Positions 17,534 to 47,215 of a stretch of 64,000 nt of DNA are shown here, piece by piece. Location: NCBI RefSeq assembly GCF_009663685.2, contig NZ_RCOG02000027.1, positions 204,240-268,239 of the forward strand, written 5' to 3'. The notes under the pieces were generated by a model. It had not been told where the DNA came from. It saw nothing but the letters and a program-made list of their open reading frames with translations, and searched no databases. A program made the position numbers and the translations under genes. Every line of letters starts with the position of its first letter. Position 1 is the first letter of the stretch. This DNA is from Cupriavidus sp. U2 (GTDB lineage Bacteria > Pseudomonadota > Gammaproteobacteria > Burkholderiales > Burkholderiaceae).

Positions 17534-18897
<1,364 letters not shown>

Positions 18898-18926
18898 GTT
18901 CAACCATCGGATCGGCAATCAATTCG

Positions 18927-19031: not shown

Positions 19032-20435
<1,404 letters not shown>

Positions 20436-20745
20436 AGGAAGGTCGGGTGGCGTCGTATGACCGGCGTCTGTTTGTCATGGGCCTGCGGGTGGCGGCTGGT
20501 TGGCCAGGGCGAATGCGGACGGCACACGCCTGAGGATAGGCTGAAGTGTAACGACAGTCCCCTGGCCACGATGCCGGTGTCCGTCTGACACGCCTGTGGG
20601 ACCTTGCCGCAACAGCGTTTCAGGCTGTAGCCACCCGGCGCGTGAACAGATAGCATGATAGACATCTTCCACCATTGCGACGCGCCCGCGCGCACCGGCC
20701 GACCCGACATTTTTCCGCGCCGGACCGCAGGCTCCCTCTACGCCC
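20436..20745. other. Divergent intergenic region between two sigma54 activator genes
   Basis: A gap of 310 bases. I find no coding frame with codon bias, no -24/-12 element with correct spacing and no T-run terminator. There is a weak inverted repeat GTGTC-CGTCT-GACAC near 20577-20591. Promoters for both activator genes must lie here but cannot be placed with confidence. Confidence 0.5.
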
Positions 20746-21762
20746 GTGTCAACCACCGCCACGCTCCCTTCCGGCCGTCCCGCCGCGCCGCCGCGCCCGG
20801 CGGGACGCCGCGCCGCACCCGCGCAGGTTTCGCTGCTGTGGGAAAGTACCTCGCCAGCCATGCAGCGGCTGATCGGCCAGCTGAACCGGGTGGCGGCCAC
20901 CGACGTCACGATGCTGGCCGTGGGGGAAAGCGGCAGCGGCAAGGAGGTGGTGGCGCGTGCCGTGCATGAACGCAGCAGCCGCCGGTCGGGCCCGTTCGTG
21001 GCCGTCAATTGCGGCGCCATCGCGCCCACGCTGATCGAATCGGAGTTGTTCGGCCACGAGAAGGGCGGCTTCACCGGCGCACTGGAACAAAAGGCGGGCT
21101 ACTTCGAGCAGGCCCAGGGTGGCACGCTGTTCCTGGACGAAGTTACCGAAATGCCGCTGGAGATGCAGATCAAGCTGCTGCGCGTGCTGGAAAGCCGCTC
21201 GTTCCACCGCGTGGGCGGCGATGCGCCGATGATCAGCGACGTACGCATCCTGGCTGCCACCAACCGCGACCCCATGGACGCAGTGCGCGGGGGCCAGCTG
21301 CGCGAGGATCTGCTGTACCGGCTGGCCGTCTTCCCGCTGCATATTCCGCCGCTGCGCGAGCGTCCCGAGGACATCATTCCGCTCGCGCGCCATTTCCTGG
21401 ACGAGTTCAACGCGATGGAGCAGACGGAAAAGTCTTTCTCTCCCGGCTCGCTGGAACGGCTGGTGCGCTACGACTGGCCCGGCAATGTGCGCGAGCTGAA
21501 GAACTCCATCTACCGCGCCTACATCCTTGCCGATCGTCAGGTCGAGATCGGCAACCCGGGCCTGGCCAGCCAGCCGCCCCGCCCCACCACCGTGGACGGC
21601 GTGGTCAGCGTGCGCGTGGGAACCACGCTGGCCGACACCCAGCGCGAGATCATCCTGGCCACCCTGGCCAAGTACGACGGCGACAAACGCCAGGCCGCCA
21701 AGGCGCTGGGCATCAGCCTCAAGACGCTGTACAACCGTCTCGACGTGTATCGGGCCAGTTGA
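20746..21762 (+). CDS. Sigma54-dependent transcriptional activator lacking a receiver domain
   Basis: A 338-residue enhancer-binding protein. After about 28 Pro/Ala-rich residues comes the AAA+ domain (Walker A GESGSGKE at 60-67, contact loop GGFTGA, Walker [31 protein letters not shown]) and then a Fis-type HTH ([13 protein letters not shown]). It has no receiver, so it may be constitutively active or controlled by a partner, as PspF is. The start is taken as GTG 20746; an in-frame stop at 20656 limits upstream extension and no strong ribosome site is visible. It is read in the same direction as glgE, 339 bases ahead of it. Confidence 0.9.
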
Positions 21763-21862
21763 TCGCCCCGGCTTCCGCGGCCGACCATTCCTCCTTCTCC
21801 CGACTGGCCGCCTGGCGTCCGCCAGATCCGCGCGCACGCTGCGGCCCCCGTTCGGGTGTCCT

Positions 21863-21876
21863 GAATGCATGCATTC
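21863..21876. promoter_or_regulatory. Perfect palindrome, candidate activator site for the glgE promoter
   Basis: GAATGCATGCATTC is a perfect 14-bp palindrome, AT-rich for this genome, centred about 145 bases upstream of the -24 element. A further GCATTCCT copy follows at 21885. The distance suits an upstream activating site for an NtrC-type protein. Binding is inferred. Confidence 0.5.
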
Positions 21877-22014
21877 CTATCAGGGCATTCCTGCGTCCCC
21901 GCCATTTCGACCCTGTACTTCTTACATTGCCGACCGGGCAGCGGCGTTGGCGTCATCCGTGCCAACCCTTGCTGCGCCGCACTTCCAGCGCGATACCGGC
22001 GCCCGGCATCCCGC

Positions 22015-22030
22015 TGGCACGTCCTCTGCA
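22015..22030 (+). promoter_or_regulatory. Sigma54 (-24/-12) promoter for the glgE operon
   Basis: TGGCACGTCCTCTGCA matches the sigma54 consensus TGGCAC-N5-TTGCA at every defined position except one (C for the first T of the -12 part). GG and GC are in the required spacing. Transcription would start near 22042, about 60 bases before the glgE GTG. Two sigma54 activator genes lie just upstream. Confidence 0.75.
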
Positions 22031-22101
22031 TGTCCTTATGGAATTGACATGACGCGCGCCCGCTTGTCCTACGGGGCGCCCACGGCCAGAGGACGTGTGA
22101 C

Positions 22102-25100
22102 GTGCGCATTTGCCAACTCAACCTGACGGAATCGCGAGCCCTGGACAACGACACCCTGATGCGCACCGCCAGGCTCGGATTCGACCATATCCTGCTGGCC
22201 GGCTGGTCAGCGTCCCATTCCCGCCCTGACGTCCTGAAAGCGGCGTTCGAAGCGTGCCGCAAGCACGGCCTGGCGCCGCTGCTCGACCTTGCGCTGGACC
22301 GGCTTCCCAACGACACGGCGGCCATGCATGACGGATGGATCGATCATGCCCGCCCCGCCGGCAGCCCGGATGCCACCGACAACCACCTGCCTGGCGTTCG
22401 CGTGCGCTGGTTCGACGACGCCACGGCGGGGCAGTTGCTGGCCTGGTGGACTGCCCAGCTCGGCGATGCCCTGGCCGCCGGCGCGGCCGGCTTCTGCTGC
22501 AGGGCACCATCGCGGGTGGCGGGTCGGCACTGGGCCCAACTGATAGAGGCGCTGCAACGCGACACCCCACCGGCCAATGGCGGCAAGCCGCTATATGGCC
22601 GCAAGCCGCTATTCCTGGCCTGGACCCCCGGCTGCACACCCCAGCAACTCGATGACCTGGCCGCCGCGCCGTTCGACGGCGCGTTTTCGTCACTGCCATG
22701 GTGGGACTATCGCAGCGCGTGGCTGACCGAGGAAATCGCGCGCCTGCGCCGCTTTGGACGTGTGCTGGCCGCGCCCGCGCTGGCCCCTGACGGCGTAGAC
22801 GTCCTGGCTGCCCGGCGGGCGTTGTGGACGGCCGCCGCCATCGGAGACGGATGGTTGGTGCCAGCTGGTTACGAGACCGGCGCCGCTGCCGCGCATGGAG
22901 CGCCGGGCTCGGCGCTCGACGCGTCACCCGGCGCGCAGGCCGACGGCCATCCCGACGATATCGTTGACGCGCCTTACGACCTGACCCATGAACTGATGCA
23001 GGCCAACGCCTGGCTCGCCGCCCGCGATGACGAACCTGCCGTGGCAGTGCGACAGGTCAGCGGGCCCGATGCCCCGCTGACCGTGCTGGCCCGCGTGCCG
23101 CGCCACCTGGCCAACGGCGCCGCCGGCAAACCGGCGCTGACCGTGGTGCTGAACCCCTGTCCCGTGCAGCCTGCGTCGTTTGGCGTCGATCGGGTGCTGA
23201 GCGGCCTGCCGCAGCCGGCGGCCACCCTGACACCCGTGAACGGCGGCCCCGGGGGCACGCTGGAAGACGGTCTCGACAACCTCAGCCCATGCAGCACGAT
23301 CACGCTGCCGCCCGCCGATATCCGCCTGTTCGAGGCCGTGCCCGCGCCCGTGATCGCGACGAACGGGCGCAAGGATACGCGCAACGGCACGCGTAAATCA
23401 GGGGGCCGGTCGGCCGACCGCGCGCTGGCCGCCGCCATGGAAGCGCCGCGCGTGGCCATCGAGAACCTGTCGCCGGCCACCGACAACGGCCGCTTTGCCG
23501 TGCGCCGCACCGTGGGCGAACGCGTGGAAGTCAGCGCCGATATCTGGATGGACGGTCACGACAAGCTGGCCGCCGTGGTGCTGTGGCGCGGCCCCGGTGA
23601 ACAGGCGTGGCACAGGGCGCCGATGGTCCACATCGTCAACGACCGCTGGCGCGGCAGTTTCCCGATGGTGGCCATGGGTCGCCATGAATTCACGGTCGAA
23701 GCCTGGCGCGACACCTTCGCCAGCTGGCTGGACGAAGTCGGCAAGAAGCGCAAGGCCGGCGTCAATATCAAGCTGGAAATCGAGGAAGGCGCGCGCCTGG
23801 TGGCCGCTACGCTCGGCACGCCGGAAGCCAGTGGCATCGCCGATGCCGGCGCGATCCTGGCCGACCTGTCGGCGGCGGCCGACGACGCCCTGCGGCTGGA
23901 AATCCTGCTCTCGCCGCGTACCGAGGCCGCCATGCGCGCGGCGATGGAAACCCCGGCGGGCCGTCCGTTCGCCAGCCGCTATCCAGCCACCATGCCGGTC
24001 GAGGCAGACCGCCTGGCCGGCCGCTTTGCCAGCTGGTACGAACTGTTCCCGCGCTCCGAGAGCGGCGACGTGAATCGCCACGGCACGTTCGACGACGTGA
24101 TCCGCCGCCTGCCCGCCATTCGTGCGATGGGCTTCGACGTGCTGTACTTTCCGCCGATCCACCCGATCGGGCAGGCGCACCGCAAGGGCAAGAACAACAG
24201 CCTGAAGGCCGAGCCCGGCGACGTGGGCAGCCCGTACGCGATTGGCAGCGCCGAGGGCGGCCACGACGCCATCCATCCGCAGCTTGGCACGCTTGAGGAC
24301 TTCCAGCGCCTGCGCAAGGCCGCCAGCGACATGGGCATCGAACTGGCGCTCGACTTCGCCATCCAGTGTTCGCCCGACCATCCCTGGCTGCGCGAGCACC
24401 CCGAGTGGTTTTCCCATCGGCCAGACGGCACGCTGCGCTATGCCGAGAATCCGCCCAAGAAGTACGAGGACATCGTCAACGTCGATTTCTATGCTGCGCC
24501 ACCGGCCGGCGAGCAGCTTTGGCAGGCACTGCGCGACGTGGTGATGTTCTGGGCCGATCAGGGCGTGCGCATTTTCCGCGTGGACAATCCGCACACCAAG
24601 CCGCTGCCGTTCTGGGAATGGATGATCGCGGACGTGCGGGCAAAGCACCCCGATACGCTGTTCCTGGCCGAGGCCTTCACGCGGCCCAAGATGATGGCGC
24701 GTCTGGCCAAACTGGGCTTTTCACAGTCGTACACGTACTTCACCTGGCGCAACACCAAGGCCGAGCTGATCGAGTACATGACCGAGCTGACGCAAAGCCC
24801 GCTGCGCGAGTTCTACCGCCCGCACTTCTTTGTCAACACGCCCGATATCAACCCGTTCTTCCTGCATGGCGGCGAGCGCCCGGCGTTCCTGATCCGCGCC
24901 GCGCTGGCCACGCTGCTGTCGGGCCTCTGGGGCATGTACAACGGCTTCGAGGTCTGCGAGAGCGCGCCGCTGATCCTGAACGGCGTGGAGCGCGAGGAAT
25001 ACCTCGACTCCGAGAAGTACGAGCTGCGCGTGCGCGACTGGCACGCGCCGGGCAACATCGTGGCCGAAATCTCGCGGCTGAACCAGATCCGCGCGAGCCA

Positions 25101-25448
25101 CCCGGCACTCCAGAACCACCTGGGCCTGCGCTTCTATCACGCCAGCGACGACGCCGTGCTGTACTTCGCACGCTTCGTGCCCACCGGGGCCGAACATGCC
25201 GGCGCATTCGGAGACGACGTGCTGCTGGCCGCCATCAGCCTGGACCCGCGCGCCGCGCGCGAGACCGACATCGAACTGCCGCTGTGGGAATGGGGCCTGC
25301 CGGACAACGCCGCGCTGGACGCCGAGGACCAGATGTTCGGCACGCGCTTCACGTGGCACGGCAAGCGCCAGCACATCCGCCTGAATCCGCACGAACTGCC
25401 GTTCGCGCTCTGGCACGTCAGGCCTCAACAACAACCTGGAGACACGGC

Positions 25449-25452
<4 letters not shown>
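22102..25452 (+). CDS. glgE: Alpha-1,4-glucan:maltose-1-phosphate maltosyltransferase GlgE, with long N-terminal extension
   Basis: 1116 residues. GlgE transfers maltosyl units from alpha-maltose-1-phosphate to glucan ends. The usual GlgE starts at about residue 451 (RVAIENLSPATDNGRF, the DUF3416 N-domain), followed by the GH13_3 barrel with nucleophile Asp828 (RVDNPHTK) and acid/base Glu857 (FLAEAFTRP), 29 residues apart as in characterised GlgE. The first ~450 residues form an extra region that resembles a degenerate GH13 barrel (ARLGFDHILLAG) without clear catalytic acids. The GTG start has AGAGGA before it. The stop overlaps the treS start (ATGA). Confidence 0.93.
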
Positions 25453-28836
<3,384 letters not shown>

Positions 28837-28850
<14 letters not shown>

Positions 28851-31110
28851 TGCCGCCGCGCTTGAGTTACCGGCGCCGACACTGCCCGCCCCGGTCATCG
28901 ATGCGTTGCGCGAGGCGCGCCTGGCCGATCCGTTCGGCGTACTGGGCCCCCACCGCGACGAACAGGGCGTGGTGGTGCGCACCATCGTGCCCGGCGCGGC
29001 AGCCGTCCAGCTGACCGGCGCCGATGGCGAATTCCTTGCCGACATGACGCGGCTGCACGCCGACGGCGTGTTTGCCGGTCGCCTGCCCGGCTTCGAAGGC
29101 CGGCAACCGACCGCCCCCGACTACCGGCTGCGCATCCGCTGGCCGGACGGCAGCGAACAGTTCGGCGCGGACCCGTATGCGTTCGGGCTGCTGCTGGGCG
29201 AGCTCGACCTGCACCTGTTCAACGAGGGCCGTCACCTGGAACTTGGCAAGTGCCTGGGCGCGCAATGCCTGACGATCGACGGTGAGCCGGGCGTCCGGTT
29301 TGCCGTGTGGGCGCCGAACGCGCGGCGCGTGTCCGTGATTGGCGACTTCAATGGCTGGAACGCGGCGCGGCATCCCATGCGCCTGCGCCACGGCGCGGGC
29401 ATCTGGGAACTGTTCGTCCCGCAGGGCATGGGCGTCGGGCCGGGCAGCCGGTACAAGTACGACATGACCGGCCCGCATGGCGAAGTGCTGCCCGACAAGG
29501 CCGATCCGGTGGCGCAAGCCACCGAACTGCCGCCGGCCACCGCATCGGTGGTGGCGTGCGCCGGGCATGCCGCGCCGCCGTTCCGCTGGAACGATGCGGC
29601 GTGGATGGAGCAGCGCGCCCGCACCGACCCTCACGCCGCGCCGATGTCGGTCTATGAACTGCACGTGATGTCCTGGCAGCGCGCAGCCAACGACAGCGGC
29701 CGGGGCTGGGAAATCCTGGCCGAGCGCCTGGTGCCCTATGTGCGCGACCTCGGCTTCACGCATATCGAACTGCTACCCATCACGGAACACCCGTTCGGGG
29801 GCTCGTGGGGCTACCAGCCGCTGTCGCTGTTCGCGCCCACGGCGCGGCTGGGATCGCCCGAACAGTTCGCATCGTTCATCGACCGCTGCCACCAGGCCGG
29901 CATCGGCGTGATCCTGGACTGGGTGCCGGCGCACTTTCCGACCGACCCGCACGGGCTGGCGATGTTCGACGGCACGGCGCTGTATGAACACCAGGACCCG
30001 CGCGAAGGCTATCACCAGGACTGGAACACGCTGATCTACAACCTGGGCCGCAACGAAGTGCGCGGCTTCCTGCTGGCCAATGCCGTCCACTGGCTCGAAC
30101 ATTTCCATGCCGACGCGCTGCGCGTGGATGCGGTGGCGTCGATGCTCTATCGCGACTACAGCCGCAAGTCGGGCCAGTGGGTGCCAAACCGTTTTGGCGG
30201 CCGCGAGAACCTGGAATCGGTGGCCTTCCTGCGCGAGATGAACACCGTGGTGCACGAACGCTGTCCCGGCGCGCTGACCATCGCCGAGGAATCCACCGCC
30301 TGGCCCGGTGTGACGGCCAGTGTGGAATCGGGCGGACTGGGCTTCAATTTCAAGTGGAACATGGGCTGGATGCACGACACGCTGCGCTACCTTGGCCACG
30401 AGCCCATCCATCGTCCCTGGCACCACGGCGACATGACGTTCGGCATGGTCTACGCGTGGTCGGAGGCGTTCGTGCTGCCGCTGTCCCACGACGAGGTGGT
30501 GCATGGCAAGGGATCGATGATCGGCAAGGCGCCCGGGGACGACTGGCAGCGATTTGCCAACCTGCGGGCGTACTACGGCTTCATGTGGACGCACCCCGGC
30601 AAGAAGCTGCTGTTCATGGGCGGCGAGTTCGCGCAGTGGCGCGAATGGAACCATGACGACGAGCTGGACTGGGCGCTGCTGGACCAGCCCGCGCATCGCG
30701 GCGTGCATTCGCTGGTGCGCGACCTGAACCGCCTGTACCGCGACCTGCCGGCGCTGCACGCGATGGACCATCGGCCTGAAGGCTTCCAGTGGATCGTGGG
30801 CGACGACCACCAGAACAGCGTGTTCGCGTACCTGCGGCGCGCCGCGCCCGACAGCCAGGACGTGGTGCTGGCTGTCGTCAACATGACGCCGGTGCCGCGC
30901 CACGGCTACCGCCTGGGTGTGCCGTTCGCCGGGACATGGGAGGAATGCCTGAACACCGACGCCGAAATCTACGGCGGCAGCAACCTGGGCAATGGCGGGC
31001 GCGTGCAGGCCGACGCAACCCCATCGCACGGCCAGCCCGCGTCGTTCTCGCTGACCCTGCCGCCACTGGCCACGCTGATCCTGCGGTATGCGCCGGAGCA
31101 TGCCGGGTGA
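28837..31110 (+). CDS. glgB: 1,4-alpha-glucan branching enzyme GlgB
   Basis: 757 residues. GlgB makes alpha-1,6 branches in glycogen. An N-terminal beta-sandwich is followed by a CBM48 ([22 protein letters not shown] region, ~150-230), the GH13_9 barrel with nucleophile Asp431 ([10 protein letters not shown]) and acid/base Glu484 ([10 protein letters not shown]), and a C-terminal beta domain. The 53-residue spacing equals that of E. coli GlgB. GGGAG precedes ATG 28837, and the start lies 14 bases inside treS. It acts on the GlgE product in the cytoplasm. Confidence 0.96.
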
Positions 31111-31189: not shown

Positions 31190-33333
<2,144 letters not shown>

Positions 33334-33337
<4 letters not shown>

Positions 33338-35628
33338 GTCACGACGACGCGCTGCAACGGCTGGCTGAACGCGCGGGGCTGCAGGTGCATTGGCGCGACG
33401 CGTGGAACCAGCCGCAGACGCTGTCGCCGGAAGCCCTGCGCACGGTGCTGACCGCGCTGGACCTGCCCTGCGGCACGGCCTGCGAGTGCGAGGCATCGCG
33501 CGCCCGGCTGGCGGCCGACGACGCGGCGCACGCGCTGCCGCCGCTGATCACCGCGGACCAGGGCCGGCCCGTGGTCGTGCCATGGGCACACCCGTTGCCG
33601 GAGCGGCCTTATCGTCTGGAATGCGAGGACGGCACGACGATCGAGGGCATCGCCCGGCGCACCGGCGACGGCACGCTGCAAATCGCGCCGGTCTCGCAAT
33701 GGGGCTACCACCACCTGCTGCTGGGCGATGTGGCGACCACGCTGGCGGTGGCGCCGCCGCGCTGCTTCAGCGTGGCCGACGCGCTCGCGGCGTCGCCGCG
33801 CCCGGTGCTGGCAAGCAAGCCCTGGGGGCTGTCGGTCCAGCTGTACGGGCTACGGCGCGGCGCCGATGGCGGCATTGGCGACCTGACCACGCTGGCGCTG
33901 ACTGCCGAAGCGGCGGCAGGCGCGGGTGCCGACGCCATCGCCATCAATCCGTTGCATGCGGGATTTCCGGCACTGCCCGAGCGTTTCAGCCCGTACTCGC
34001 CGTCCAGCCGCATCTTTTTCAACCCGCTCTACGCCGACCCCGCGCGCATCTTTGGCCAGGCCGCCGTGGACCACGCGGTGGCGACCCTCGGCATCGGCGC
34101 GGCACTGGCCGAAGCCGAGCGGCGCACCGAGATCGACTGGCCGGCCGTCGCCCAGGTGCGGCTGCGCTTGCTGCACTGGCTCTGGCAGCATCACGACACC
34201 TTGCTGTCCGCTGTGCAGAAGCAGGCATTCGCCGCGTTTCGCGCACGCGGCGGCAAGGCATTGCTGGCGCACGCCACGTTCGAAACCATCCAGGCCGAGC
34301 GGCTGGCCGCCGCAGCCGACGGTGACGCCGCCCGCGACGCCGCCGACTGGCGACGCTGGCCGGCGTCGCTACGCCACCCCGATGGCGCGGCAGCCGCTGC
34401 CATCGCGACAAGCGCCGCCGACGCCATCGGCTATCACGCCTTCCTGCAATGGCTGGCCGCCGATGGCCTGGACGACGCGCAGCAGCGTGCGCGCGCGGCA
34501 GGCATGGCGATTGGCGTGATTGCAGACCTTGCCGTCGGCACCGACCCCGGCGGCAGCCACGCGTGGACGCGCCAGGCCGAAATCCTCAACGGCTTCCACG
34601 CCGGCGCCCCGCCGGACCTGTACAACCCGCTGGGGCAGGACTGGGGCGTGGCCGTATTCTCGCCGCGCGGCCTGCGCCGCAACGGCTATGCCGCCTTCAT
34701 CGAGATGCTGCGGGCCAATCTGGCCCACGCCGGCGGCCTGCGCATCGACCATGTGCTGGGTCTGGCGCGCATGTGGCTGGTGCCCGAAGGGGCGCCCGCC
34801 AGCGCTGGCGCCTATCTGACCTATCCGCTCGACGACCTGCTGCGCCTGGTGGCCATCGAGTCCTGGCGGCACCGCGCGATCATCATCGGCGAAAACCTTG
34901 GCACGGTGCCGGAGACGCTCGATACCGCACTGGCAGCACGTGGCGTGCTGGGCATCGACGTGCTGTGGTTCGTGCGCGAGGCGGACGAGGCGGACGAGGC
35001 AGACACGGCGGACGAGGCAGACGGCGATCGCGCCGCCGGCGATGCCCGGCCGGACACGCCCCCCTCGCCTCCCGCGCAGGCTCCCGGCGAAACCCCTGCC
35101 GCGGCCGGGCCTGCCTGCCCCGCATTCCTGCAGCCCGATCGCTGGCCCGCGCTGGCCGTGGCCACCACGACCACGCACGACCTGCCGACCATCGCGGGCT
35201 GGTGGGCGGGCCGCGACATTGCCTGGCGCGCCCGGCTGCACCAGCTGGCCGCCGACGAGACCGAGGCCGGCCTGATGGCGTTGCGCGCTGCCGAGCGCAG
35301 CGCGCTGTGGCAAGCCATGCGCGACGCAGGCGTGGCACACGGGGCCGAGCCGCCCGCCGACACCGCGCCCGTGGAAACCGTGCTGCGCTGGCTGCATCGC
35401 GCCCCTACCCCGCTGCGGCTGGTGCCGGTGGAAGACCTGCTGGCGCTGCGTGAACAGCCGAACCTGCCGGGGACGGTCTCCGGCCATCCCAACTGGCAAC
35501 GGCGACTGGACGCCGATCCGCGCGACCTGTTCACGCGCCCCGAGGTGGCGCGGCGGGTGGCGGCACTGCGCGACGGGGACGCGCAGGCAGACAGCGGGGG
35601 CGAAGACAGCGGAGACAGCGATGCGTGA
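33334..35628 (+). CDS. malQ: 4-alpha-glucanotransferase (amylomaltase) MalQ
   Basis: 764 residues. MalQ disproportionates malto-oligosaccharides. The N-terminal region (~1-150) is the beta-rich MalQ extension, and the GH77 barrel follows, with nucleophile Asp472 (LRIDHVLGLARMW) and acid/base Glu520 (IIGENLGTVP). Between WFVRE and FLQPDRWP (residues ~549-600) is an insertion of Glu-Ala-Asp repeats and a Pro/Ala stretch, absent from usual MalQ, encoded by a 9-base tandem repeat. The start overlaps the glgX stop. It is the last gene before the antisense hybrid kinase. Confidence 0.94.
34978..35022 (+). repeat. 9-base tandem repeat in malQ
   Basis: Five tandem copies of GAGGCNGAC (the fourth starts with ACG) encode (Glu-Ala-Asp) repeats. 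They lie in frame inside the malQ barrel between conserved segments, in what must be a surface loop. Copy number could vary by slippage without changing the frame. Confidence 0.85.
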
Positions 35629-40618: not shown

Positions 40619-40941
40619 TCGCGGGGCGTCACTGGGGGCAGCCAACGCAGTACCGCTGCCGCCACAATCCAGGGTGACCGATCCATCGATTGCAGATTGG
40701 TCGACGTCTGGCCCGCTTGCTGCACTTTCTACAAAAGTGGCGGCACCTTATACATCGGCGTTGCTCCGCGCCTCGTCGCGCCAGTCCAGCCGCCTCAGGC
40801 GTCACGCGGCACGCCAGCCTGCGCCGGGGCTGGCACAAAGTTCGCATTGCTGTTCCCCTGCATCCTGCGGCCCCTGTGTGCGGCGCCGCACGGAGCATCC
40901 ACCCCATCCCAGCAGAACGGCAAACCAGCGGGAGTCTTTCC
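40619..40941. other. glgP-glgA intergenic region
   Basis: 323 bases without a supported gene. It contains the strong -24/-12 element at 40831-40846 and a weaker sigma54-like match at 40709-40724. A GGGAG ribosome site for the glgA TTG lies at 40930-40934. No terminator with a T-run is visible after glgP, so read-through from glgP is possible. Confidence 0.6.
40831..40846 (+). promoter_or_regulatory. Sigma54 (-24/-12) promoter for glgA-treZ-treY
   Basis: TGGCACAAAGTTCGCA matches TGGCAC-N5-TTGCA with one mismatch (C for the second T); the invariant GG and GC have correct spacing. Transcription would start near 40858, about 84 bases before the glgA TTG. It is the same kind of element as that upstream of glgE. 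Confidence 0.7.
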
Positions 40942-42555
40942 TTGAACGCGAACACCCTGTTTGTGGCGGCAGAAGCCCAGCCCCTGGCCAAGACTGGCGG
41001 GCTGGCCGACGTGGTAGGCGGACTTGCCCGTGCGCTGCTGCAGCGCGGCGCCGATGTCACGATCCTGATACCCGGTTACCCGCGCGCCATTGCGGCGGCG
41101 CGCGACGTGCGCAGCCTTGGCGCGATCCACCTGCCGATGGCCCTGCCGCCGGGACACAGCCCTGCGCGCCTGCTGCAAGGCCAGATGCCGGATAGCGGCG
41201 TGCGCGTGGTGTTCCTCGACTGCCCCTCGCTCTACGACCGACCGGGATCGCTGTACGTTGACGCCACCGGCCGCGACTTCTGCGACAACGCCCAGCGTTT
41301 TGCCGCGCTGGCGCATGCCGCCACGGCCATCGCGGCGGGCGAAACGCCGCTGCCGGTGCCGAGCCTGGTCCATGCGCACGACTGGCACGCGGCGCTGACG
41401 CCGCTGCTGATGCGCACGCGCGGCCTGCGCACGCCCACCGTCTGCACGATTCACAATCTGGCCTTCCAGGGCGTGTTTCCCATGGCCGTGGCCGGGCCGC
41501 TGGGCCTGCCCCCGGAATCGCTGACGCCCGATGGCATCGAGTTCTGGGGCAAGATCAATTTCCTGAAAGCCGGCATCCGTTATGCCGACCGCATCACCAC
41601 GGTCAGTCATACCTATGCGCGCGAAATCCTGACGCCCCACTTCGGCCATGGGCTGGACGGCCTGCTGGTGCATCGCGCGGCCGTGCTGGGCGCCATTCCG
41701 AACGGTGTCGATACCGACACCTGGTCACCCCGCACCGACCGCCTGCTGCCGCAGTGCTACGACGCACGCAACCTGGCGGGCAAGCGCGCCTGCAAGGCCG
41801 CCCTGCAGCAGCGCCACGGGTTGCCGGTGGATGCCGACCGCCCGTTGATCGCCATGGGCAGCCGCCTGACACACCAGAAGATGGCCGATGTCGCGCTCGA
41901 CGCGATCGCCCTGGCACTTGCCACACACACCGACGCGCAGTTCGTGATCCTGGGCTGCGGCGATCCCAGGCTCGAAGCCGCATTTTGCGCACTGGCCCAG
42001 CGCCATCCGCAGCGCGTGGGCGTGGCCATCGGCTATCGCGAGGAAGATGCGCACCTGCTGCACGCAGGCGCCGACATGCTGTTGCACGGCAGCCGCTTCG
42101 AGCCCTTCGGCCTGACGCCGGTCTATGCCATGCGCTATGGCACCGTGCCAATCGTGTCGCGCGTGGGTGGCCTGGCCGACACCGTGCGCGACGTGGGCGA
42201 CGGCACCGCACCGGCCGCCCGCGCGAACGGCATTGTTTTCGACGGCGAATCCGTCGAGGCGATGTGCGCAGCCATGACCCGTGGACTAGGATGGTATGGT
42301 CGCCAGCGCCACTGGCGCAGCCTGCAGCGTACCGGCATGCAAACCGACTTCGGCTGGGAAGGCCCCGCGCGCCAGTACCTCGCCATGTATGGCTCGCTGG
42401 CACCGGCGCTGGCTCACGTGCCGGTCGTGGACGTGGAAGCCGTGGCAGCGGCGCCGACGGTACAGCCGGCGCGCGGTGGTCGCCGTCCGGTGGCAGTGCC
42501 CGACGCACCGGCGCTGTCGCCGTCCGACGCCGGCGCGGCCGCGACGCCCGCCTGA
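40942..42555 (+). CDS. glgA: Glycogen synthase GlgA (or GlgM-like maltose-1-phosphate synthase)
   Basis: 537 residues, GT5 family. KTGGLADVVGG (Lys17 binds the nucleotide sugar), HAHDWHAAL, THQKMADV and the C-terminal SRFEPFGLTPVYAMRYG motif are present. It uses ADP-glucose to extend glucan. The start is TTG with GGGAG 8 bases upstream; the protein then begins MNANTLFVAAEAQPLAK as usual. The last ~55 residues are Ala/Pro-rich and extra. No glgC is nearby, so its ADP-glucose source is elsewhere. It is probably co-transcribed with treZ and treY. Confidence 0.94.
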   Translation: MNANTLFVAAEAQPLAKTGGLADVVGGLARALLQRGADVTILIPGYPRAIAAARDVRSLGAIHLPMALPPGHSPARLLQGQMPDSGVRVVFLDCPSLYDRPGSLYVDATGRDFCDNAQRFAALAHAATAIAAGETPLPVPSLVHAHDWHAALTPLLMRTRGLRTPTVCTIHNLAFQGVFPMAVAGPLGLPPESLTPDGIEFWGKINFLKAGIRYADRITTVSHTYAREILTPHFGHGLDGLLVHRAAVLGAIPNGVDTDTWSPRTDRLLPQCYDARNLAGKRACKAALQQRHGLPVDADRPLIAMGSRLTHQKMADVALDAIALALATHTDAQFVILGCGDPRLEAAFCALAQRHPQRVGVAIGYREEDAHLLHAGADMLLHGSRFEPFGLTPVYAMRYGTVPIVSRVGGLADTVRDVGDGTAPAARANGIVFDGESVEAMCAAMTRGLGWYGRQRHWRSLQRTGMQTDFGWEGPARQYLAMYGSLAPALAHVPVVDVEAVAAAPTVQPARGGRRPVAVPDAPALSPSDAGAAATPA

Positions 42556-42615: not shown

Positions 42616-44568
42616 ATGATGACTGCTACGCCATCCCCGCCGCCCCGTGACGGCGCACCGGTCCGCCGGAACTGGCAAACCCTGGGCGCCGATGCGAGGC
42701 TGCTGCCCTGCGGCGACGAAGCCGCCGAGGGCTACTGGTTCGGCCCGGTGCGACTGGCAGACGGCCGCGTGCGCTTCCGCCTGTGGGCGCCCGACGCCGC
42801 CGCGCAGGGTTATGCGATACGGCTTGAAATCGCTGGCATGGCCCCCGTGGTGATGACGGAAGGCAAACGCGGCTGGTTCGAGGCGGTGGTGCCGTGCTGC
42901 CACGGCGTGCGTTACTGGTTCCGGCTCGACGATGGCACCATCGTGCCCGACCCGGCTTCGCGCCTGCAGGCCGATGACGTGCATGGCGCCAGCGTGCTGT
43001 GCCTGCCGGAGGCCGGCGCGGCCTACGCCTGGCAGCATACGGAATGGCGCGGGCGCCCGTGGCATGAAGCGGTGATCTACGAGCTTCACGTGGGCCTGTG
43101 CGGCGGCTACACCGGCGTGATGTCCGAACTGCACCGCCTGGCGGCACTGGGCTTCACCGCCATCGAACTGATGCCGCTGTCGGAGTTTCCCGGCGCCCGC
43201 AACTGGGGCTACGACGGCGTGCTGCCGTTTGCTCCCGAGCACAGCTATGGTTCGCCCGACGAACTGCGCGCGCTGATCGACGCCGCCCATGGGTTGGGCA
43301 TGATGGTGCTGCTCGACGTGGTCTACAACCACTTCGGGCCCGACGGCAACTACCTGCACCAGTACGCCAGCCCCTTTTTCCGCACCGACCGGCAAACCCC
43401 GTGGGGGCCGGCCATCGATTTCCGCCGCCCGGAGGTCCGCCGCTTCTTTGGGGAAAACGCGCGCTACTGGCTGGAATCGTTCCGCTTCGACGGGCTGCGG
43501 CTCGACGCCGTGCACGCCATCGAGGATGAGGGCTGGCTACCCCAGCTGGCGCAGGAACTGCGCGCATGCCTGCCGGACCGGCACGTGCATCTGGTGCTGG
43601 AGAACGATCACAACGACGTGGCGCTGATCGAGGCCGGTTACGACGCGCAGTGGAACGACGACGCCCATCACGCGCTGCACGTGCTGCTGACGGGCGAGCA
43701 TGACGGCTACTACCGCGAATATCAGTCGGCACTGCCCGGCGCCACGGCCGCGACAGACATCGGCACGCCCGCGCTGCATCACCTGGCACGGGTGCTGGGC
43801 GAAGGTTTCGCGTGGCAGGGCGAAGTGTCGCCGCACCGCAGCGGCGACGAGAATGGCCCGCTGCAGGGCCGCGAGGTCCGGCGCGGGCAGCCCAGCGCCG
43901 GGCTGCCTCCCACCGCCTTCGTGATGTTCCTGCAGAACCACGACCAGACCGGCAATCGTGCGTTCGGCGAACGCCTGACCACGCTGGCGGACCCCGACGC
44001 CCTGCGCGCGGCGGTGGCGCTGCAACTGCTCTGCCCGCAGATTCCGCTGGTGTTCATGGGCGAGGAGCATGGCGCGCGCACGCCCTTCCTGTACTTCACC
44101 GACCATCCGCCGGAACTCGCCCAGGCGGTGCGCGACGGCAGGCGGCGCGAATTCGCCGCGTCGTCGGCCTTCCGCGACGACGCCCATGCCGCGCGCATCC
44201 CCGACCCGAACGCGCCGGAGACGTTCGATGCCTCGCGTCCGGTCTGCGACGATACCGACGGCGATTGCCGCGCGTGGAACCACTACTACGGCGAACTGCT
44301 GTCGATCCGCCGCAACGAGATCGTGCCTAGGTTGCGCCATTGCCAGCCGATTGGCGTCACGCCACTGGCCGACCGCGCGCTGGTGGCGCGCTGGCGCCTG
44401 GGCGACGGGAGCCAGCTGTCGATCTGGCTCAACCTTGGCGCCGAGCCCGTGGAAGCCGACTGCGCCGGCGGCCGGATGCTGCATGCCAGCCAGGCAGGCG
44501 CCATTGCATCGCTCAACGCCGGCATCCTGACCGAACGCTGCTGCGTCACCTGCCTGCATCCCGCCTGA
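42616..44568 (+). CDS. treZ: Malto-oligosyltrehalose trehalohydrolase TreZ
   Basis: 650 residues. TreZ releases trehalose from maltooligosyl trehalose. The N-terminal CBM48-like domain (RVRFRLWAPDAAAQG) is followed by the GH13_10 barrel with Asp297 (GLRLDAVHAIED) and Glu329 (LVLENDHNDV), and FLQNHDQTGNRAFGERL. AAGG precedes the ATG (42616 or 42619). It lies 60 bases after glgA and 7 bases before treY, giving the complete two-step route from glucan to trehalose. Confidence 0.95.
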   Translation: MMTATPSPPPRDGAPVRRNWQTLGADARLLPCGDEAAEGYWFGPVRLADGRVRFRLWAPDAAAQGYAIRLEIAGMAPVVMTEGKRGWFEAVVPCCHGVRYWFRLDDGTIVPDPASRLQADDVHGASVLCLPEAGAAYAWQHTEWRGRPWHEAVIYELHVGLCGGYTGVMSELHRLAALGFTAIELMPLSEFPGARNWGYDGVLPFAPEHSYGSPDELRALIDAAHGLGMMVLLDVVYNHFGPDGNYLHQYASPFFRTDRQTPWGPAIDFRRPEVRRFFGENARYWLESFRFDGLRLDAVHAIEDEGWLPQLAQELRACLPDRHVHLVLENDHNDVALIEAGYDAQWNDDAHHALHVLLTGEHDGYYREYQSALPGATAATDIGTPALHHLARVLGEGFAWQGEVSPHRSGDENGPLQGREVRRGQPSAGLPPTAFVMFLQNHDQTGNRAFGERLTTLADPDALRAAVALQLLCPQIPLVFMGEEHGARTPFLYFTDHPPELAQAVRDGRRREFAASSAFRDDAHAARIPDPNAPETFDASRPVCDDTDGDCRAWNHYYGELLSIRRNEIVPRLRHCQPIGVTPLADRALVARWRLGDGSQLSIWLNLGAEPVEADCAGGRMLHASQAGAIASLNAGILTERCCVTCLHPA

Positions 44569-44575
44569 CACCGCC

Positions 44576-47215
44576 ATGACCACACCCGCCGACGTGCATC
44601 ACGCCGACCTCGATCATGCCGGCGTGCCCCGCGCCACGGCGCGGCTGCAACTGCATGCCGGCTTCACCTTTGCCGATGCCGCTACGCTGGTCCCCTATTA
44701 CGCCGGGCTCGGCATCAGCCACCTGTATCTGTCCCCGATCACCGAAGCGCGGCCGGGGTCCACGCACGGCTATGACGTCACCGACTGCACGCGCATCAGC
44801 ACGGCGCTGGGCGGCGAAGACGGCTTTGTGGCGCTGGCCAGCCAGGCGCGCGAAGCCGGCCGGGGCATCGTGCTGGACATCGTGCCCAACCACATGGCCG
44901 CCGACGCCAAGCACAACGCATGGTGGCGCGATGTGCTGGCGCAGGGCGAACGCAGCCCGTTTGCCCACTACTTCGATATCGACTGGCAATCGTCCGACCC
45001 CGCCCTGCGTGGCAAGGTGCTGCTGCCGGTTCTGGGCGACCCGTACTGGCAGGCGCTGGAGTCGGGAGCGCTGATCGTGGAACGCCGCAGCGATGGCCGG
45101 CCGACGCTGCGCTACGGCGACCACGACCTGCCGCTGTCGATACCGGACGGCTCAGCCTTGCCCACCGACGCGCAGGCACTGCACGCGCTGCTGGAACGCC
45201 AGCCCTACCGGCTGGCGTGGTGGCGCACCGGGGCCGCCATGCTGAACTGGCGCCGCTTCTTCGAGATCACGGAACTGGTAGGCGTGCGCCAGGAGTGCGA
45301 GGACGTGTTCGAGGCCACGCACGCGCTGCCGTTCCGGCTGTACCGCGAGGGCTGGATCGACGGGCTGCGCATCGATCATGTGGATGGCCTGGCCGACCCC
45401 GCCGGCTACTGCCGCCGCGTACGCGCGCGCCTGGACACCCTGCGGCCCGGCCGGCCTGCCGCGCTGGCGCGCGCGCATCCCTGGCTGGTCGTCGAGAAGA
45501 TCCTGGGCGAGCGCGAACCGTTGCCGCGCGACTGGCAGGTGGATGGCACCACCGGCTACGACTTCATGGACGAGGTGGGCGCGGTGCTCCACGACCTGCA
45601 CGGCGTGGCCCCGCTGAACATGCTCTGGCTGCAGATCAGCGGCGACGACCGCACGTTTGCCGAACAGGTCCATGCCGGGCGGCATCGCGTGCTGGCCCGC
45701 CATCTGGTCACCGAGGTCGCGTCGCTCTGCGCGCGGCTGCTTGCACGCGCACGCAGCGACATCGCCACGCGCGATCTGTCGCCGCACGCGCTGCAGCATG
45801 CGCTGTCGGCGTTCATGACGGCCATCCCGGTGTACCGCAGCTACTACGTGCCCGGCGACGATGACCGGGACCGCTCGTTCGACGAAGACATGGTGTCGGC
45901 TGCAGCCGATGCCGCGCGCCGCCACCTGGCGCCGGACGAATCGGCCGCGCTCGATTTCATCGTGGCCGCCTTGCACGCCGACGCCCCGCTCGACAGCGCC
46001 GCCGGGCAGCTTCGCACCAAACTCCAACAGCTGATGCCGGCGCTGGCTGCCAAATCCACCGAGGACACCGCGTTCTACCGCTATGGGCGGCTGTTGTCCC
46101 GCAACGAGGTGGGCAGCGATCCGGGCACGCTGGCCATTGCAGCCGAACGCTTTCACCAGCGGATGCAGGCGCGCGCCGATACATGGCCGCACGCCATGCT
46201 GGCCGTATCCACCCATGACCATAAGCGCGGCGAGGATGCGCGGATGCGGCTGGCCGTGCTGAGCGAGTTGCCCGAGGCATGGGCGGACGCCGTGGCCGGC
46301 TGGGAGACGCATCTGGCGCCGCTGCTGGCGGCATCACCCCGGGGCCCCGACGGTATCGACCGCCTGATGCTGTACCAGACGCTGGTGGGCGCATGGCCGG
46401 CCGATCCGCGCGCGCTGGCGTCCGAGGAAAGCCAGCGCGCCTTCGTCGACCGTATCCTGGCCTGGCAACGCAAGGCCATTCGCGAGGCCAAGCGTCACGG
46501 CAGCTGGACCCATCCTGACAGCGAATACGAGAACGCATGCGAGGCGTTTCTGCCCGCCATGGCCATCGGCGGCCCGGAAAGTGTGCTGGAGCGCATCGGC
46601 GCCTTCGCGGCGCGCATCGGCACGGCTGCGGCGCTGAACAGCCTGGCGCAGACGCTATTGCAGCTGACCGCGCCCGGCGTGCCGGACCGCTACCAGGGCA
46701 ATGAAACCTGGGACTTCAGCCTGGTCGATCCCGACAACCGGCGCGCACCCGATTACGCGCGGCTGCAGGCGCAACTGGAATGCCGCGCGGGCTGGCCGCA
46801 CTGGCTTGCGCACTGGCGCGACGGCCGCATCAAGCAGCAACTGATCCGCAGCGTGCTGGCTTTTCGGCGCGATAACCCGGCGCTGTTCGACCGGGGCAGC
46901 TACCGTGCGGTGTCCGTGAGCGGCGATCTGGCCGGGTCCGTGCTGGCGTTTGCACGACAGTGCGGCAACGTGGAAGCCGTGGTGGCCGTGACCCGGCTCG
47001 CCGCGCGCCATGTGGACCCGGCCGTGCCGCGTATCCCACCGCATTGCTGGCACGATACGGGCCTGCATACGGGCGATGGCGGCGGTAGCGGCATCAGTAA
47101 CGGCGACGGCTGGACCGACATCCTGACCGGTCATGCCGTGACATCGCACGCGGGATGGCTGCGTGCCAAGGACGTATTTGCCACGCTGCCCGTGGCGCTG
47201 CTGGTGCGACGCTGA
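44576..47215 (+). CDS. treY: Malto-oligosyltrehalose synthase TreY
   Basis: 879 residues. TreY converts the reducing-end alpha-1,4 bond of maltodextrin into an alpha,alpha-1,1 (trehalose) bond. GH13_26 motifs are ARLQLHAGFTFADA, YLSPITEARPGSTHGYDV, GLRIDHVDGLADP (Asp267), VVEKILGERE (Glu307) and AVSTHDHKRGEDARMRL. It follows treZ by 7 bases with no clear ribosome site of its own, so translation is probably coupled. It ends 9 bases before the convergent surE. Confidence 0.96.
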   Translation: MTTPADVHHADLDHAGVPRATARLQLHAGFTFADAATLVPYYAGLGISHLYLSPITEARPGSTHGYDVTDCTRISTALGGEDGFVALASQAREAGRGIVLDIVPNHMAADAKHNAWWRDVLAQGERSPFAHYFDIDWQSSDPALRGKVLLPVLGDPYWQALESGALIVERRSDGRPTLRYGDHDLPLSIPDGSALPTDAQALHALLERQPYRLAWWRTGAAMLNWRRFFEITELVGVRQECEDVFEATHALPFRLYREGWIDGLRIDHVDGLADPAGYCRRVRARLDTLRPGRPAALARAHPWLVVEKILGEREPLPRDWQVDGTTGYDFMDEVGAVLHDLHGVAPLNMLWLQISGDDRTFAEQVHAGRHRVLARHLVTEVASLCARLLARARSDIATRDLSPHALQHALSAFMTAIPVYRSYYVPGDDDRDRSFDEDMVSAAADAARRHLAPDESAALDFIVAALHADAPLDSAAGQLRTKLQQLMPALAAKSTEDTAFYRYGRLLSRNEVGSDPGTLAIAAERFHQRMQARADTWPHAMLAVSTHDHKRGEDARMRLAVLSELPEAWADAVAGWETHLAPLLAASPRGPDGIDRLMLYQTLVGAWPADPRALASEESQRAFVDRILAWQRKAIREAKRHGSWTHPDSEYENACEAFLPAMAIGGPESVLERIGAFAARIGTAAALNSLAQTLLQLTAPGVPDRYQGNETWDFSLVDPDNRRAPDYARLQAQLECRAGWPHWLAHWRDGRIKQQLIRSVLAFRRDNPALFDRGSYRAVSVSGDLAGSVLAFARQCGNVEAVVAVTRLAARHVDPAVPRIPPHCWHDTGLHTGDGGGSGISNGDGWTDILTGHAVTSHAGWLRAKDVFATLPVALLVRR

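Follow-up and report, generated by a model that had tools for sequence, protein, structure and literature searches.

Predicted sigma54 control of the GlgE/TreS operon, and of glgA, in Cupriavidus and related bacteria

Is the GlgE glycogen/trehalose operon of Cupriavidus sp. U2 transcribed by sigma54-RNA polymerase and, if so, which activator would switch it on? The original prediction had placed a sigma54 promoter in front of glgE, beside two genes for sigma54 activators, in the window, i.e. the whole 64 kb stretch of DNA that we analysed here.

The promoter element before glgE

The features on which the question turns are the following:

22015..22030, + strand: predicted sigma54 (-24/-12) promoter of the glgE operon, TGGCACGTCCTCTGCA, assigned by sequence, matrix score and conservation
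21914..21926, + strand: candidate upstream activator sequence TGTACTTCTTACA, a TGTA-N5-TACA inverted repeat situated 101 nt upstream of the promoter
22102..25452, + strand: glgE, first operon gene, GTG start, 1116 aa; Pfam GlgE_dom_N_S and GLGE_C
24366..28850, + strand: treS-maltokinase fusion, longest ORF; TIGR02456 and TIGR02457 above cut-off
28741..31110, + strand: glgB, branching enzyme, longest ORF; TIGR01515 above cut-off
31190..33337, + strand: glgX, debranching enzyme; TIGR02100 above cut-off
33340..35628, + strand: malQ region within ORF 32059-35628; TIGR00217 above cut-off, match from residue 428

Position, -24 match and GC spacing of TGGCACGTCCTCTGCA are as claimed, and the Pfam domains identify the downstream gene as GlgE. 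A direct check of the sequence puts the GG at 22016-22017 and the GC at 22028-22029 with 10 nt between them, the -24/-12 spacing expected near the consensus TGGCACGNNNNTTGCA, from which the site differs solely in the first T of TTGC. Between the end of the site and the GTG of glgE at 22102 lie 71 nt, and the usual sigma54 spacing predicts a transcription start at about 22040-22042. The genome carries rpoN in a single copy (G000:C2:118004-119452, 484.1 bits). As the domain match of the treS-maltokinase ORF begins at residue 380, the true start of this gene is nearer 25500. The GlgE of the window has ~430 extra N-terminal residues, an extension limited to some groups, since 13 of 15 distant GlgE matches begin after it, at residue 425-449. 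Two genomes of the survey show GlgE matches in several pieces and different frames (G023:C6:182582-185821; G028:C2:179260-182627), perhaps broken genes or assembly errors.

By itself, the sigma54 pattern is weak evidence, barely rarer than chance and unremarkable: the whole genome contains 34 occurrences of TGGCACNNNNNYTGCW vs 22 of the backwards pattern, and a looser pattern with at most 2 mismatches matches 42 times in the window vs 40.5 expected. A generic sigma54 matrix, based on the general consensus and carrying no enhancer information, ranks the glgE site first (18.1 bits) among all positions of the window, both strands included. In 60 Markov shuffles, sites of at least 16 bits averaged 0.3 and never exceeded 2, vs 2 in the window; those of at least 14 bits averaged 1.4, vs 3 in the window.

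The original prediction had proposed looking for the element before glgE in relatives. We examined 36 genomes of the genus, our own included, of which 31 have GlgE, and with the upstream sequences turned to the gene strand we found TGGCAY-N5-YYGC with correct GC spacing 51-123 nt before glgE in 29 of these 31. The inverted repeat TGTA-N5-TACA is present upstream of glgE, with at most one mismatch, in 28 of the 31 genomes, while a 29th (L131) has GGCATTTTTTACA at the equivalent place; in all 29 measured genomes the enhancer-like element lies 92-134 nt above the promoter element, so that judged from sequence a conserved upstream site able to serve as an enhancer accompanies the promoter. In upstream alignments both elements form conserved islands amid otherwise hardly alignable DNA. 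The choice of sites required the GG and GC, and TTACA for the enhancer, and these columns are thus fixed by selection; a T two places past the -12 GC, a column unused in choosing the sites, is present in 29 of 29. The alignments before glgE and glgA were made without such selection, and those before glgE leave out rows whose strand had not been turned and which therefore cover the opposite gene end.

The same arrangement at glgA and at a small gene

Further copies of the arrangement stand elsewhere in the window, before these genes:

40721..40733, + strand: first tandem candidate glgA enhancer, TGCACTTTCTACA
40742..40754, + strand: second candidate glgA enhancer, GGCACCTTATACA, 21 nt further on
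40831..40846, + strand: predicted sigma54 promoter of glgA, TGGCACAAAGTTCGCA, ranked second in the window (17.6 bits)
40942..42555, + strand: glgA, TTG start, conserved in 10 aligned genomes
42616-44568 and 44576-47215: treZ and treY, after glgA
18064..18076, - strand: candidate small-gene enhancer, AGCACTTTTTACC
17930..17945, - strand: predicted small-gene sigma54 promoter, TGGCCCGGCGTTTGCA, ranked third in the window (15.6 bits)
17534..17866, - strand: small 110-aa protein, a probable third regulon member

The top three sigma54 scores of the window thus belong to the three promoters that also bear a candidate enhancer (glgE, glgA and the small gene). Scanning the window for pairs of the two elements gave 7 pairs vs 0 in the reversed sequence. 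The glgE and small-gene promoters account for one pair each and glgA for two (one per enhancer); the other three, weak pairs of 15.7-18.6 summed bits, we set aside as chance. Across 39 Cupriavidus and related loci we found 70 pairs vs 5 in the reversed loci, and 40 vs 0 at a summed score of at least 28. Because glgE sites from these very genomes served to train the enhancer matrix, the glgE pairs are in-sample; those of glgA and the small gene are not.

For glgA we surveyed 33 genomes with GlgA, 30 of them represented by loci. The 10 aligned genomes share TTTCTACAA before glgA, followed after 21 nt by a second CTT-N-TACA, as well as GCTGGCAC-N2-A-N-TTCGCATTG, and the pair recurs in five genomes of a second group (L232-L236). 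One locus (L237, from G023) has the sigma54-like TGGCACGCGCTTCGCG before glgA and lacks the enhancer; no such pair was seen in 14 other GlgA loci, one of which (L247) has a weak sigma54-like site alone. The small-gene arrangement is common to 13 genomes, themselves picked from pair-scan matches, and the 110-aa protein has no NCBIfam match at 1e-20.

Strict patterns run over the whole genome recover all three promoters, yet their counts do not beat the control. The first pattern gave 3 matches (glgE, one on the opposite strand beside it and one elsewhere) vs 3 in the control, the second 2 (glgE and, within a coding gene, L215) vs 3, the third 2 (glgA and one elsewhere) vs 2, and the fourth 1 (the small gene) vs 2. 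A pattern search across 40 genomes also matched before glgA in G001, G020, G031 and G033.

Other occurrences of the elements were observed along the way. An arrangement TTACACTCCGCA...TGGCAY recurs away from glgE (G013:C34:24236, G035:C90:161124, G009:C44:71841 and G060:C19:73490) and is possibly another sigma54 promoter. Necator-type Cupriavidus show a further pair ~3 kb above glgE, at 4119-4946 of L123 before a frame that by eye is CinA-like, with similar pairs in L124, L126, L128, L130, L136, L137, L139 and L140. Another locus (L125, 5716-5828) has GGCAGGAATTACA with a TGGCAYG-type element upstream of glgE, before a frame that by eye resembles a membrane protein; L129 (5475) and L181 (4582) have a like arrangement.

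The activator genes and their co-occurrence with the element

Next to the glgE site, the expected two genes for sigma54 activators are indeed present, both with the Pfam domain Sigma54_activat:

20746..21762, + strand: enhancer-binding protein (EBP), 338 aa, AAA+ and Fis-type HTH by Pfam, GGFTGA loop; likely activator
19032..20435, - strand: NtrC-type response regulator (RR), 467 aa, GSFTGA loop; receiver, Sigma54_activat and HTH_8 by Pfam
18076..18918, - strand: small histidine-kinase-like ORF downstream of RR; HisKA E 1.4e-4, 22.3 bits

EBP shows the features of a bacterial enhancer-binding protein, an AAA+ domain with a GAFTGA-type loop and an HTH (Sigma54_activat PF00158, 2.3e-66; AAA lid; HTH_8 PF02954, 2e-10), and Pfam found no receiver or sensory N-terminal domain in it. 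The HisKA match of the ORF at 18076-18918 is weak, its 22.3 bits lying under the Pfam cut-off of 26.9; the ORF is a possible partner of RR. EBP and RR are encoded divergently and are 55% identical over their common part. Their recognition helix (12 residues) is identical in the window, and EBP and RR may thus bind the same sites. The RR helix was also read in L208, L209, L211 and L212; across the loci read there are two variants of the helix, with one exception (L192, GISPKTLYNRL), and the Nevskia locus (L207) reads GISVKTLYNKL. Between and around the two genes (20301-20800) we found no sigma54 match above 4 bits that would point to autoregulation, and one enhancer-like TGTCCGTCTGACA at 20578 (9.3 bits).

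Neither protein reaches the threshold of a named family among those compared: EBP is below cut-off in the best 25 of 28 NCBIfam families, and RR in the best 25 of 91. EBP reaches 264 bits for PspF (TIGR02974, cut-off 443.55 bits); for NtrC (TIGR01818, cut-off 558.6 bits) RR reaches 370.8 and EBP 312.9 bits, and for NifA (TIGR01817, cut-off 528.85 bits) 332.2 and 314.2 bits, respectively. These scores lend no support to the suggested tie to nitrogen signals, neither activator reaching the NtrC or NifA cut-offs.

We sought EBP in 60 genomes at E 1e-100 and found an ortholog in 29 of the 31 Cupriavidus genomes with GlgE. The two without a match (G006 and G023, with 35 of 39 and 35 of 44 candidates scored, respectively) are the two genomes whose glgE has neither element (Fisher p 0.002 over the 31 genomes, relatedness ignored). 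Kinship makes such co-occurrence counts weaker than they look, there are only two exceptions, and both are atypical in other ways too. EBP adjoins glgE in 10 of the 31 genomes; the element is kept in 19 of the other 21, where EBP lies outside the upstream stretch that was fetched. By eye, glgE of G006 (L117) stands in a different gene setting, with no promoter, enhancer or EBP match; in G023, glgE follows glgA and the GlgE match is split into four pieces. Weak or weaker element pairs occur elsewhere in these loci, two in G006 (L117) and one in G023 (L180). An EBP without a GlgE match was found in G018 and G021. The former has enhancer and promoter before a short frame that by eye resembles a glgA start, with a TreZ-like frame coming next; despite this glgA-like frame, a profile search gave no GlgA match in G018. 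Neither EBP nor GlgE was matched in G022 and G030, and G012 is incomplete.

EBP and RR genes travel together, and the presence pattern consequently does not tell one from the other. Two matches, EBP and an RR-like protein, were found in all 31 EBP-bearing Cupriavidus genomes and in all 24 EBP-bearing genomes outside the genus; in G073 the two are on separate contigs, and three other genomes of the order have one match only rather than such a pair.

Outside Cupriavidus, 28 of 70 named GlgE loci, our own selection, were searched for EBP, which was found in 24 of the 28 genomes (57-61% identity). At the head of the cluster, 21 of these 24 have a sigma54 element of at least 13.5 bits, nine before glgE (L012, L015, L017, L018, L022, L028, L033, L035 and L072) and twelve before a glgA that precedes glgE (L010, L011, L034, L037, L042, L044, L049, L054, L057, L058, L061 and L064), in the latter 62-161 nt from the estimated glgA start. 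The element is absent in all four others, namely Belnapia, Inquilinus and Rhizobium (no EBP match at E 1e-85) and Nevskia (a 49% hit). The count of 21 comprises 19 plus the two Ralstonia loci L010 and L011, whose element lies 117 nt before glgA without a scored enhancer; the Fisher value of 0.006 refers to 19 of 24 and ignores relatedness. Three EBP-bearing loci (L014, L026 and L079) have no element of at least 13.5 bits at the expected place, and L026 carries the weaker GGGCACATGCCTTGCT.

In most of 11 aligned Paraburkholderia loci, TGGCACA-N4-TTGCT or a close variant lies below an inverted repeat, TGTAAAA...TTTTACA, and the geometry of the enhancer differs there; L017 and L025 have GGGCACA in place of TGGCACA. 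A pair scan of the 70 non-Cupriavidus GlgE loci gave 19 pairs vs 1 in the reversed loci, the remaining loci having none at the threshold; 17 of the 19 are located before glgE or ~2 kb above it on its strand, and the other two lie elsewhere in L014. We also examined 17 additional GlgE loci from the order and class (the 15 distant GlgE matches, not counting the window itself, together with L141 and L142); one of them (L257) had an element of at least 11 bits within the available stretch, and the promoter is thus not a general feature of GlgE loci. Judged from these sequence comparisons, such wiring appears to be characteristic of Cupriavidus, Ralstonia, Paraburkholderia, Caballeronia and relatives.

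A probable sigma54-driven GlgE/GlgA regulon and its alternatives

Taken together, sigma54 control of the GlgE/TreS operon is well supported by conservation of the site, by the paired upstream element and by the co-occurrence of the activator. The same arrangement at glgA and at the small gene suggests that a regulon is controlled rather than one operon. Our preferred reading, to which we assign a probability of about 0.86, is that of a sigma54-driven GlgE/GlgA regulon, most likely activated by EBP with or under RR. As established for such promoters, sigma54 polymerase binds and then waits for an activator; here it would wait at the promoter of glgE-treS/mak-glgB-glgX until an enhancer-binding protein, presumably bound to TGTA-N5-TACA ~100 nt upstream, opens the promoter through its AAA+ domain. 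The same arrangement would drive glgA, with two enhancers, and the small gene near the activators. The protein that binds is most likely EBP (20746-21762), acting with or under RR (19032-20435) and perhaps the kinase-like neighbour; EBP and RR may use common sites or form mixed hexamers, with a division of labour between them.

How far do other explanations account for these observations? It is conceivable, though highly improbable, that TGGCACGTCCTCTGCA is a chance sigma54-like sequence and that glgE is transcribed from a sigma70-type promoter, e.g. TTGACA at 22044-22049. This hexamer lies just downstream of the site in the window and in the nearest relatives, and sites of such quality do arise genome-wide, as the counts of 34 vs 22 illustrate; but TTGACA is absent from the aligned necator-type genomes, a promoter scan of 21500-22200 gave no sigma70-type match, and chance does not account for the glgE site because site and enhancer are conserved across the genus. 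We also regard it as improbable, albeit less so, that the promoter is real and answers to another activator (e.g. NtrC or a CbrB-like protein), the neighbouring EBP and RR being incidental. An argument for this is the position of EBP, which adjoins glgE in no more than 10 of the 31 Cupriavidus genomes, and in Pseudomonas syringae CbrB positively regulates trehalose and alpha-glucan, as stated in the available part of PMC8982409. Against it, presence and absence of EBP largely track those of the element, one enhancer-bearing promoter stands beside the EBP and RR genes, and the enhancer differs from the TGT-N10-ACA of NifA given in the available part of PMC2820453. For Pseudomonas putida, the accessible text of PMC6296734 reports CbrB near glgA by ChIP, which its authors judge not to be sigma54-dependent.

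The remaining alternatives concern the roles of the two proteins. In a variant of the preferred explanation, RR is the direct activator and EBP a modulator or mixed-hexamer partner only. The receiver domain would offer RR a route for signal intake, and both the identical recognition helix and the joint occurrence of the two genes are consistent with it, whereas EBP itself possesses an AAA+ domain bearing a GGFTGA loop; on balance we consider this variant rather unlikely. A more far-reaching idea, which we put forward tentatively and with some doubt, is that EBP and RR constitute a dedicated dual-activator switch, possibly with mixed hexamers, through which sigma54 would act as master regulator of both carbon storage and protection from desiccation in Cupriavidus, Ralstonia, Paraburkholderia, Caballeronia and relatives; other bacteria rely on RpoS or catabolite control for this purpose.

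With EBP acting together with or under RR, as we prefer, the system resembles known ones in part. Short enhancer-binding proteins consisting of AAA+ and HTH only are known from Pseudomonas syringae (HrpR/HrpS) and Escherichia coli (PspF), and HrpR/HrpS are two similar activators working together. The target genes here are others, the RR partner has a receiver, and EBP scores below the PspF cut-off. An enhancer ~100 nt above a -24/-12 element and an AAA+ activator with a Fis-type HTH are also found in the NifA and NtrC regulons, from which the present system differs in that both of its proteins lie under the cut-offs of these families and, compared with NifA, in its enhancer motif.

The idea that sigma54 control of this pathway would be without precedent did not hold. 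According to the available part of PMC8202526, an rpoN deletion in Pseudomonas fluorescens UK4 lowers the transcripts of glgA, glgX, glgB, glgE, malQ, treZ, treY and treS, and the same effect is cited there for P. aeruginosa in a kinB mutant; RpoN-dependence of the glg/tre transcripts has thus already been reported in Pseudomonas, for the same pathway genes and with glgE included, while that part of the paper describes no promoter element, enhancer or activator for them. Among the papers listed in our literature search, none deals with a sigma54 promoter, enhancer or activator of glgE; terms for glycogen and trehalose are absent from the main texts of PMC5979394 and PMC5748707, as are glycogen, glgE and trehalose from PMC3162934. 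In C. necator H16, the accessible portion of PMC4377017 lists H16_B1557, the trehalose synthase B1558, glgB, pulA, treY, malQ and glgP as up in the glycerol phase and among the 50 most changed genes, in the same phase in which the sigma54/HoxA-driven hydrogenase genes are on; the glg/tre genes are not tied to sigma54 in that portion. We infer from its place beside B1558 that H16_B1557 is glgE, and these published RNA data are compatible with sigma54 control. A hint of a nitrogen link comes from outside: a Pseudomonas stutzeri nitrogen-fixation microarray paper names glgA (PST2137) in one of its gene lists, in a part that does not include the heading of the list (PMC2820453). In nifA-mutant bacteroids of P. 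phymatum, treS (Bphy_7407) is lower, as given in the available part of PMC8305402.

A candidate enhancer, three predicted promoters and an uncharacterised activator pair make the control of GlgE glycogen/trehalose metabolism directly testable. Bacteria of these groups are used in bioplastic work and include plant symbionts. Activators of sigma54 stay idle until a specific signal arrives; identifying this signal would therefore reveal what the cell senses before storing carbon.
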